DNA of 64,000 nucleotides from Fomes fomentarius (Eukaryota > Basidiomycota > Agaricomycetes > Polyporales > Polyporaceae): the NCBI GenBank assembly GCA_022606135.1, contig JABYQN010000010.1, forward strand, positions 682,001 through 746,000, written 5' to 3'. Made by a program: the position numbers and the translations under genes. This document shows, piece by piece, positions 57,241-63,910 of the stretch (within the stretch, counting starts at the first letter, position 1; the number at the start of each line of letters is the position of its first letter). The notes below the pieces were generated by a model. That model was not told the DNA's origin. It saw only the letters and a program-made list of their open reading frames with translations, and made no database searches.

Positions 57241-60200
57241 CTACCTCCGCGGCCCGTTGTACAGCGTATCGTCCACCCACTCCGCCGCGTTCCCAATCGG
57301 ATACTGCGGCGCATAGTGGCTCCGCGAGAGCCGGTGGCCGTTCGACGCGCGGTTCCCGCTGGCGGAGAGGATGCTGTTGTTGCTGGGGTACGAGCCGTGC
57401 GCGCCGCCGATGCTGCCGCCGCTCCTGCGCTGGCTCTGCCCTTGTAGAGGGCCAGAGGCGCTACGCGAGTGTGTCGAGTTCTGCAGACGGTGCGAGGAGC
57501 CTTGTCGGGGTACAGCCCCGGCGGCTACTGGTGCGGGGACGCTGGGATGATGATTGTCAGATAAAGGGATGTGTGTGTGCATGGAGCGAGGAAGGATTTA
57601 CTTGGGCCCGTACATCGGCGGCTGTCCAGCCTGGCGAGTCATCGCTGCGGGATTAAAGCCGATCGGTCCAGTTCCTGGGTAGCTGGGGATCCGTTCTGCT
57701 TTCGGTGTCTTGGAGCGACATGACCGGAAGAGACCTACATGCCGTTTCGTGAGTGTCTGGATGGAGCGACAGGGCACAGTACACTTACAGCGAAGAATGC
57801 CATAGAGGATCAGGAGGACTACGATGCCCACGACGACTGTGACAGGGATAGAGATTTGGAGGTTGTGGACATACCACGACTGCGAGCTACATGTCAGGAG
57901 ATACTCGCGTACGTCGAGTGGTTTTGATACATACCTTGAAGACCTCCATCCATGATCCAGGTTGACAGTTCCCAGATATACAAGTTCCGCCGTAGCCTGT
58001 CAAGATGGTCGCAACCTAATCCCCACACAACAAAACCAACGTACGCACCACATGGAGAGCCATCTACAAGTGTTGACTGGAGGACGACACACTGATTCGA
58101 ATTGTCCGGATCCTGACACGAGACCTGGCACGACTTGTCGTTGTTACTCGGACAAGCCTTCTTGAGCCCCATAGAAGCGCCGACGAGCTGGCATTGTTCT
58201 GCGAACACCAAGATCAGCCTCACTTTCGCAACCCGCATAGAGACAGACGCACGATCAAGCGACGTGCACTGTCCACTCGCACACGCGAGACCATCTGAAC
58301 CACAACTCTGCCCGTTCGGAGCAGTGACATCCTGTGGACACTGCGGACTGTTACCAGTACACTTCTCCTCACTATCGCACCGGTCGTCCTTGCTCGGGCG
58401 GCACACCTGCGTCGCTGGCGCGAAGGCGCACTGGTCCGTGCAGCATGGCGAGCTGTCCGGGTCGCAGACCGCGCCGTTCTTGAACTTGCATGTTGATGCG
58501 TCGCAGCAGGACGAGTTGGAGTTGATGCCCGGGTCGCATTCTTCGCCGTCCTCGACGATGCCGTTGCCGCACATCTTGAGCGTGATGAGCGGCTTGCTGT
58601 CCGTGAGGGAGGTCGGCGCGTTAGGGTCGATGAGGCAAGAGGTGTTTGTCCGGCCGCCGGAGGTTCCTGCCATGAGTGAGCCTGGGAGGAAGTCAGTTGT
58701 CAGCGGACACATAAGCGGAGGTTGACGGGGACGTACAGATGTTGCCGATACTGCAGGGCGAGAAGTTCATCTCCCCTGTGTCCGCGACGGGACTCATGAT
58801 GTACTGCGAATTCGCGTCACATGTCGAGGTCGAAAGAGGGCAGCAGTTGACCGATTGCGTCTCGCATCCGTTCGCACATGAACACCCGCCGGCGCACTGC
58901 GAGTATGGTCAGTACCGCCAGCTGCATGCGGCAAACCATTTAATACTTACATCGTGCTGTGGCGCGAGGGTGGAATGAGCATCATGTCACGTAGCATGAC
59001 ATTGACGGGATACTCACGATAGCACCGAAGTTATGACCGATCTCGTGAGCAACAACCTGCCACTCTGTCCTTCCACCCGTCGACACGGCCGTACCAGAGA
59101 CAACAGACGGGTCCTGGCCTGAAGCAGTCTGCTGGCAGAGAGTCGCAAGCCATGCGATGCCGACTTCAGAACCAGTCGGACATCCGCTCATCAGGTGCCA
59201 AAGACCAGCACCGTCGTCACCCTTGGTGCCTCGCCATTCGGAGAAGATGGAGAGACGATCGTTCAGCGTGATCGACTCTTGGCATGCGACATTCCACGGG
59301 AAGTCGGAGGGTGTAGAAGAAGGACATCTATTCACGACAATGTCAATGCTAGCGTGCGACAGAGACGATGAATGGAGACTGACGTTGGCGGGCGAACTTC
59401 AAGCTCGATGATGCCGAGACTGACTTGGAACGTAGACTATATAGCAGGTGTTATACTGTTTGCCACTGCAACATTCCGGACGACGAACCTTGTACAATGC
59501 ACTTGCAGTGTTCCAGTTTGTGATGATAGCCGTCGTAGCGTTCGCCTCAGATCCATATCGCTTTGTGTACTCGCAGTCTGCAGCAACACCCATATAGACG
59601 ACTCGTTGTGACGTGGGGCACCCTGCATTTGAGCCAATAGTACCTGAGAAGCTGTGACGACGTTAGACCCTTGCCGTATGAAGTGCGCGAGGACACGATA
59701 CGTACTCCATGCCCATGCCAGGACCAGCGACATCATCGCGCTTCGTGTGATTTGAGAGCGTTGAAAAGCCCAGAGGATCATACCAAGAGGTGAGCGGCGC
59801 AGAGGCGGGTTTCCGGATGGCGTGATTCTGCATCGGGTCAGTGTTGAATCGATGCTTGTCGTGACCACAAGTCTCGCCGGCTGTTACAGGCGAACCGAGA
59901 CCCCCATCCAAGACCCGCGCGTGCTCATGCTTGCTCATCACATCGGAATCGCGCCAAATGACCAAGTTCGAATCAGGGTGCTCTTCAGAGAGTTCTACGT
60001 GGGGATCGAGTGCAAGCTTGTTGCGGAGGTAATGGTCCTTCGTCATGACATGGTGGACGACGCCGTTCACGGAGAATGCGCCCTCAAATACTGGTGGTCT
60101 GCCTGCTATCGCATCTCCCTGGTCGTGGACAGTGACACGTGCCCATCCGAGCTCATACTGCCCCGAAGGTCGTGGGATGACCCCGGCGGTGTCTTCCCGT

Positions 60201-61558
60201 AATCGATCTGGGGATATGTGGGCCGGGATGACCTCGCCCCAGTACGCTTTTACCGACTCTCGTAGGATAGGTTCCGAGTGGGAGAATATTTGCTGGCCAT
60301 CGGGCCCGTCCTTGTAGTAGTTGATGCGTGCAGCAGGATGGATTAGATGGTCGTTAGGGCGTAGATGCAGGTAGAATGTCTCGTCGAATGCGGTGAGTGT
60401 GAGGCGGAACGAGTCGGAGTGGCGGAGGATGGGCGAGTCTAATGGTGGTGAGCGCTTTCCAGGTGTCGATGGTGAAGCTCTTCGCGGAAGGATGTCGATG
60501 GAGAGCGTCGACGGATGTGCTAATCGCTTCAACGGCCGTGCAGGAGCACTGAGTGCTATAAACGAAAGGGTCAGCTGTCTGTCATTTGTGCAACGATTTC
60601 ATAGTTAATAGTCGCCCTGAAGGTGAACTCCGATAGGCTATCCTCCCGTGAGATGCAGCTGGATATCCGCTGGTAACATCAAACGCAAGCACCATCCTAC
60701 TATGATGAACGGCATATATCGTCACATTGGGCTCTTTCAGATGAGGAGGCTCACTGCGACACCGCCAAGGGCATGCGCGGCGACAGTCGGCTTAGCCTTG
60801 CGAGAATCTGAACCCATGACGCAGAATGTGGTCCAGCGCGTCTCTCGCCAGGGGACGTGCGCAGTTCGCAAGTGCGACTGAATTCAGATAAGTTGCCGCG
60901 AACACAGCCAGTGGACGGCCGAACTCCGCAGCAGGCGGTGCAGCTGGGCCGTGGTCCCAGCATGCGCACCGAGCTCGATACGAGGAGGAAGCACCATAGG
61001 ACGACAACAAAGAGACTGCGATGGAGGGCATGGGGCTTGGTTTCAAGGCTAGAGTGTGCGCGAGCAGACGGGGAAATGCGTCTACGGGAAGCGCCCGCAC
61101 AGAGAAGGAGCGCAGTTTACGCAGAGTGCAGAGCATCAGGGCACGTATGACCATGAAGCCTTTCGGAGTGTCATGACTCATGAACGATGGTCCGCAACCG
61201 CACAGAACGACCGTTAGGGAGCCATGACGCGAGCCGAGAGTCGCACCGTCTTCAACGCGCAACACCCGATATACCATGACCCCGCTCCTTCCTGAACTCA
61301 GACACCCATCGTCCCGCGCGACCACAGCGTATATTGAGTAGAACGAGGCCCATGAGGTACCACGAAGCCTTCCAGATCTCCCATGCCTTCATTTCGTACC
61401 ACACGCCCATCGGGACAATTTACGCGGAGGAAGGGCCGAAAAGAGAGCGCCCGGAGTAGACCACAGCCGACGAGGGTATTCTGGCACATACCTGAGGCCG
61501 AATGGAGGCCAGCGAGGAGGACGAGGAGGAAGCAGCATAGACGGTGGTGAGAGTACAT
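57241..61558 (-). CDS. ADAM-family zinc metalloprotease, membrane-anchored
   Basis: Fungal ADAM (disintegrin and metalloprotease) type I membrane protein of the secretory pathway. Exons 60555-59706, 59651-59489, 59436-59384, 59327-59018, 58956-58951, 58896-58737, 58681-58253, 58198-58049, 57996-57935, 57879-57789, 57734-57602 and 57541-57241, all in phase. Domains in order: prodomain (RPLKRLAHPSTLS, FEGAFSVNGVVHHVMTKDHY), protease (CPTSQRVVYMGVAADCEYTK, zinc site VVAHEIGHNFGAI+HD, Met-turn YIMSP), disintegrin (CGNGIVEDGEECDPG, CCDASTC), Cys-rich (CTGNSPQCPQDV, GLACASGQCTSLD), helix IPVTVVVGIVVLLILYGIL and a ~150-residue cytoplasmic tail ending DDTLYNGPRR. The 6-nt exon 58956-58951 encodes only His-Asp. 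A likely first exon, 61558-61492 (signal peptide CCFLLVLLAGLHSAS), is in phase but lies behind an unusually long 936-nt intron, so the start is less sure. About 924 residues with it. Confidence 0.88.

Positions 61559-62783: not shown

Positions 62784-63910
<1,127 letters not shown>

Follow-up and report, generated by a model that had tools for sequence, protein, structure and literature searches.

Six nucleotides of a gene on the reverse strand of Fomes fomentarius DNA raise the question of whether an exon of this size can supply a zinc ligand of a metalloprotease and, if so, whether its inclusion is regulated. The gene lies in a 64,000-nt stretch (contig JABYQN010000010.1, positions 682,001 to 746,000, hereafter the window). 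An initial annotation had proposed that CACGAT is a separate exon encoding the last zinc ligand of an ADAM protease, and that its inclusion or skipping could switch the enzyme between active and inactive forms. The sequence, splice sites, unique reading and protein family of this exon are established, and we consider it highly probable that the six bases are a true microexon, constitutively included in the transcript of a membrane-anchored ADAM (M12B) protease of Agaricomycetes.

The ADAM gene and its predicted product

The features of the gene model are listed in Table 1. Its first intron (60556-61491, 936 nt) directly follows a signal-peptide-like exon and is about 17 times as long as the others, which measure 52-61 nt. 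The encoded protein comprises, in this order, a hydrophobic N-terminus, a propeptide, an M12B catalytic domain, a disintegrin domain, a Cys-rich-like region, a hydrophobic segment and a tail. The reprolysin catalytic domain was matched by PF13688 (1e-45), PF13574 (1.3e-43) and PF13583 (2.5e-43), the propeptide by PF01562 (24.9 bits, cut-off 23.7), the disintegrin domain by PF00200 (62.9 bits, cut-off 35.1), and the cysteine-rich region by PF17771 at 27.2 bits, just below the cut-off of 27.3. By hydropathy, 19-residue windows starting at residues 757-765 peak at 2.84 and mark a candidate transmembrane segment.

Table 1. Features of the predicted ADAM gene, in window coordinates
Feature	Position	Strand	Basis
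ADAM gene model, 13 exons, 12 introns, 924 aa	57241..61558	-	by eye and homology, from sequence
Exon 2, propeptide region; ends just short of the Pfam catalytic match	59706..60555	-	gene model, Pfam
Exon 3	59489..59651	-	gene model
Exon 4	59384..59436	-	gene model
Exon 5, part of catalytic domain, ends HEIGHNFGAI	59018..59327	-	gene model, Pfam
Intron 5, 61 nt, phase 0, GTGAGT...CCACAG	58957..59017	-	gene model, splice scoring
Exon 6, microexon: third zinc ligand and following Asp	58951..58956	-	sequence, path enumeration, gene model
Intron 6, 54 nt, phase 0, GTAAGT...TCGCAG	58897..58950	-	gene model, splice scoring
Exon 7, starts CAGGCSC; Met-turn-like YIMSP (residue 515)	58737..58896	-	gene model, PDB alignment
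Exon 8, holds disintegrin match 580-654	58253..58681	-	gene model, Pfam

In the ADAM family, the three histidines of the HExxHxxGxxHD motif bind zinc. The corresponding sequence in the model protein, HEIGHNFGAIHD, spans residues 472-483 and is complete only with the microexon, whose histidine faces the third motif histidine of snake-venom-type enzymes (two PDB alignments shown; 46 distinct sequences matched). In addition, the YIMSP segment aligns, at the sequence level, with the VMSP of the factor X-activating enzyme heavy chain (2e3x). The Pfam domains and PDB alignments agree with the ADAM identity proposed at the outset, and the alignment with solved relatives bears out the histidine as the third zinc ligand. 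Judged from its sequence, the gene product is a membrane-anchored fungal ADAM (M12B), a protease by family. It shares the domain order and the zinc motif with ADAM/adamalysin (M12B) proteins and differs from them in being a fungal member, its oddity residing in gene structure and not in the protein. The nearest among the proteins listed belongs to Daedaleopsis nitida, Polyporaceae (87% over residues 300-760). Elsewhere in the window, open frames at 62784-63810 (-) presumably resemble a spermidine synthase, as judged by eye.

A six-nucleotide exon completes the zinc-binding motif

Exon 5 ends with ...GGTGCTATC (GAI), a boundary read from the sequence, and the protein continues after the microexon with the TGC codon that opens exon 7. 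The 121-nt interval between these two exons carries AG-CACGAT-GTAAGT on the same strand, and CACGAT encodes His482-Asp483 of the spliced protein. We enumerated all splice paths with either one or two GT/GC-AG introns, each 40 nt or longer. Five of them keep the reading frame, and histidine is present in two of the five, both via CACGAT; only the path GTGAGT/CCACAG/GTAAGT/TCGCAG results in the canonical zinc-motif spacing, HEIGHNFGAIHDC. Three other candidates were rejected: a GC donor at 59023, which yields HEIGHNFGHDC with the wrong motif spacing; one continuous 121-nt intron lacking the microexon, which loses the zinc ligand and is twice the usual intron length; and read-through of intron 5 or intron 6, which runs into stops. 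With intron 5 retained, the protein continues as ...GAIVSIPSMSCYVT and terminates at codon 12 past GAI; with intron 6 retained, it continues as ...HDVSIKWFAACSWRY and terminates at codon 16. Introns 5 and 6 match the other internal introns of the gene in length (52-60 nt), compared with 121 nt for the single intron.

Sequence and path enumeration thus confirm the six-nucleotide exon of the initial annotation at exactly its coordinates, and CACGAT holds as the only in-phase source of the histidine. The further proposal that skipping keeps the frame is borne out by translation of the skip form, in which the third zinc ligand is lost. The exon qualifies as a microexon by its length (at most 15 nt), by canonical introns on both sides and by the conserved motif that it completes.

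Splicing of so short an exon could be accommodated by the small size of its neighbors. Short introns are proposed to be recognized across the intron (intron definition), and efficiency is then set by intron length and does not depend on that of the exon (PMC8624252). Introns of 61 and 54 nt would each be recognized across the intron, and the 6-nt exon would thus need no recognition as an exon. The two introns would probably be removed in turn, joining GAI-HD-C and completing the three-histidine zinc site, and the normal mRNA would nearly always carry the microexon.

Chance expectation and strength of the splice signals

Of 200,000 dinucleotide shuffles of the 121-nt interval, 109 produced the pattern AG-CAYGAY-GT flanked by 40 nt or more to either side, and 11 did so when a GTRNGT donor was also demanded. 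A looser event, any in-frame internal exon beginning with His, was found in 3,015 of 50,000 shuffles. The hexamer CACGAT by itself shows no enrichment: the window contains 38 occurrences, against a mean of 44.67 in shuffles.

The splice sites were scored with small matrices built from the ten other introns of the gene. Among its 292 GT dinucleotides, the donors of introns 5 and 6 rank 16 and 3, respectively; among its 229 AG dinucleotides, the acceptors of these introns rank 52 and tied 5, the worst acceptor among the other introns being that of intron 4 (rank 57). The branch motif CTRAY is absent from intron 5, which has only CTCAT at -23, and is present in intron 6 as CTGAC at -16. The signals of intron 6 therefore look strong, and those at the 3' end of intron 5 weak. 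As far as the sequence tells, these weak 3' signals are the sole local feature favouring regulation.

The zinc site in related proteins

The strongest support for the microexon comes from protein homology. We collected 183 different relatives from three protein searches (best 120 of 1,870, 118 of 118, and best 120 of 235 matches). Two of these searches deliberately used skip-form queries, one a skip model from the database and the other the skip form of the window gene, so the share of skip models among the 183 is raised. Directly after HExxHxxGxx, HDC stands at exactly the place of the microexon in 160 of these listed relatives; a direct C follows in 14, other residues in six, and HD with an odd continuation in three. 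The search that was not aimed at skip forms gave, among its best 120 of 1,870 matches, 110 proteins with HDC, five exact skips, two with HD and an odd continuation, and three others. Pattern searches for DNA of relatives gave 6 matches in viral contigs and 10 in prokaryote genome contigs, none of them a relative.

The 14 models that lack exactly His-Asp (P0062, P0077, P0097, P0098, P0105, P0122, P0123, P0126, P0140, P0144, P0149, P0150, P0151 and P0170) are widely scattered. They come from Agaricales (Psilocybe cyanescens, Volvariella, Hebeloma, Armillaria luteobubalina, Amanita muscaria, Amanita thiersii, Termitomyces and Pterulicium), Russulales (Vararia and Russula vinacea), Gloeophyllales (Neolentinus), Hysterangiales (Hysterangium), Geastrales (Sphaerobolus) and Gomphales (Ramaria). 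The orders of Volvariella, Vararia, Neolentinus, Hysterangium, Sphaerobolus and Ramaria were looked up; those of Psilocybe, Hebeloma, Armillaria, Amanita, Termitomyces, Pterulicium and Russula are the ones to which we take these genera to belong. Nine further models are odd in other ways. Six of them resemble read-in of an intron, either of intron 5 (GAIVSC in Agrocybe pediades, GAIVSL in Mycena amicta, GAIVSV in Mycena indigotica and GAIVST in Ceratobasidium theobromae) or of intron 6 (HDVSAD in Taiwanofungus and HDVGAN in Mycena venus), and three (P0163, P0164 and P0165) fit no simple read-in.

The skip models span six orders, and a seventh, in which the exon is visible in the DNA, is added by the window gene, which falls on the Polyporales side; the read-in-like model of C. 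theobromae (Cantharellales) is weaker evidence for an eighth. Since models from six Agaricomycete orders besides that of the window lack exactly two residues, as if the same introns flank them, these gene-model errors suggest that the arrangement is probably ancient in Agaricomycetes.

Missed exon or real isoform

The database labels of the relatives separate the normal and abnormal sites. All 23 odd models, including the 14 exact skips, bear the ncbi label, which we take to mean annotated genomes. The 34 clusters with no label other than lgn or jgi include no abnormal site, against 23 of the 149 others (Fisher p 0.009, a guide only, as the groups differ in species and the species are related). 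His-Asp is present in all 34 of these lgn/jgi-only relatives, which are proteins from other species. By our own count, 17 of the 34 have a longest listed contig no more than 1.2 times as long as the coding sequence, and the 11 short introns of the window gene alone would need a ratio of 1.22; these 17 thus look like transcripts, and the other half may not be.

Near relatives of two skip models point in the same direction. The uniref record of Psilocybe cubensis has HDC where P. cyanescens has the skip, the two being 97% alike over 56 residues, and an lgn protein with HDC shares 90.9% identity with the skip model of Armillaria luteobubalina, its contig ratio of 1.26 placing it outside the strict 17. 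In 13 skip models compared with their nearest HDC relative (Russula vinacea was left out), the surroundings of the site are otherwise conserved. Given that all skips are ncbi-labelled, that His-Asp is found throughout the lgn/jgi-only group and that relatives of two skips retain it, we read the 14 skip models as gene models that missed the same microexon, which is likelier than real isoforms, bearing in mind that a real skip isoform could hide inside a cluster of the protein database, clustered at 90%. A miss by the gene finder is the simplest reading, and missed microexons have been described in plants (PMC8831610) and in Trichoderma Xlr2 (PMC11121469). Gene-prediction software probably misses this microexon in other species too, leaving falsely "dead" enzymes in databases. 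The main consequence of a missing microexon would then lie in annotation, as falsely dead ADAM models, and not in physiology.

Alternative explanations

Retention of intron 5 or intron 6 might tune the gene, a stop soon after HEIGHNFGAI giving a truncated protein or message decay. This explanation is compatible with a constitutive microexon, and we regard it as unlikely. Either retained intron does bring an early stop, and retention is the commonest alternative-splicing event in Schizophyllum commune, accounting for about 43-44% of coding events counted by transcripts (PMC5034255). Moreover, in a set of 69 constitutive microexons of plants, more than 72% adjoin a detained intron, compared with about 30% of introns genome-wide (PMC8831610). 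Against this, apart from the weak intron 5 acceptor nothing marks out the present gene.

The regulated cassette exon of the initial annotation, in which skipping would produce a full-length membrane-anchored ADAM without the third ligand as an inactive decoy or adhesion form, is in our view quite improbable. It draws on a microexon length divisible by three, so that the frame survives skipping, on the weak branch and acceptor of intron 5, and on the exact correspondence of 14 of the 183 listed database models to the skip form. Precedents are a 20-nt switch microexon reported for Trichoderma virens Xlr2 (PMC11121469) and the proposal that P450 microexons of Phanerochaete chrysosporium promote alternative splicing (PMC1184071). 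The database evidence nevertheless fails to support the active/inactive switch, as the exact skips are confined to ncbi-labelled models, none is found among the 34 lgn/jgi-only proteins, and HDC is present in proteins closely related to two of the skip models. Xlr2 reads never joined exons 1 and 3, and this microexon is therefore not a simple cassette (PMC11121469). In S. commune, exon skipping makes up 1% of coding events by transcripts, but amounts to 1,527 events in coding regions by junctions, beside 7,851 alternative splice sites (PMC5034255). The stronger version of the proposal, that the 6-nt metal-ligand exon has been kept across all Agaricomycetes because skipping makes a conserved membrane-anchored protease-dead ADAM, with the 14 skips as real isoforms, appears highly improbable. 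True evolutionary loss of the residue in some lineages, turning their ADAMs into pseudoproteases, is barely credible: His-Asp is indeed missing from models in six orders, but the site's surroundings are otherwise conserved in the 13 models compared, near relatives retain His-Asp, and it is unlikely that precisely two residues next to an intron were lost again and again.

Comparison with known microexons

The exon is in itself well supported and of a kind already known from plants and fungi. For instance, plant invertase and AP2 genes contain 9-nt microexons, that of invertase encoding D-P-N/D-G/A, a part of the beta-fructosidase motif. Such plant microexons (PMC8831610) resemble the Fomes exon in measuring at most 15 nt, contributing part of an important motif, being old and having been overlooked by many annotations; they differ in belonging to plant genes and in their discovery by RNA-seq, whereas the Fomes case concerns 6 nt in a fungal protease and was recognized in genomic sequence. 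The P450 genes of P. chrysosporium are closer in organism, this species being also a white rot basidiomycete with small introns, and six-base exons are already in print for them, the shortest being 6 bp (2 aa); they belong to another gene family, and the available text claims neither a catalytic residue nor class-wide conservation (PMC1184071). The Xlr2 microexon of T. virens likewise is fungal; it encodes two of the cysteines in a zinc domain, and annotation had overlooked it. It differs in its length of 20 nt, not divisible by three, and in its place in an ascomycete transcription factor, with glucose-dependent inclusion shown by RNA-seq (PMC11121469). Among the papers listed in a search of the open-licence literature, no title or displayed abstract mentions a microexon in a fungal ADAM.

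If the constitutive microexon is real, a catalytic ligand in a mushroom ADAM family would hinge on two introns around a six-base exon being spliced correctly, and would probably have done so since early in the history of Agaricomycetes. Models that look wrong at the zinc site make up 10 of the best 120 of 1,870 matches, and the five exact skips among them mimic dead enzymes; such misannotation would mislead pseudoprotease surveys and structure predictions. The microexon would also offer a clean test case for gene finders and, being frame-neutral, a probe of how the fungal spliceosome handles exons too short for two complexes together.

Partial copies elsewhere in the genome

We identified three partial copies on contig C14 (L014-L016), which correspond to the part of the window gene between exon 4 and the 3' end. 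They show about 87-91% identity to it (two of the three compared), and the microexon and the splice-site dinucleotides are kept in all three. The presence of the same exon in three partial copies indicates that CACGAT is not a sequencing slip. The unchanged six bases are uninformative on selection, as no change in six bases is often expected at roughly 9% divergence. In the 9.5-kb stretch of one copy, copy B, nothing matches the residues preceding 366, and its alignment has gaps in exons 8, 9, 11 and 13; the other two are 99.6-99.9% identical to copy B. The copies look like broken fragments, silent on function.

The same contig (genome G000) contains a 12-kb stretch twice, at about 705896-717957 and 779521-791590, with 99.8% identity (L014-L016, L018-L023). 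A third copy, inverted, covers 7.5 kb of it at 607047-614543 (99.6%). The repeated stretch bears the 3' part of an ADAM gene together with a P-type ATPase-like fragment, and might be a gene-capturing repeat or a segmental duplication.
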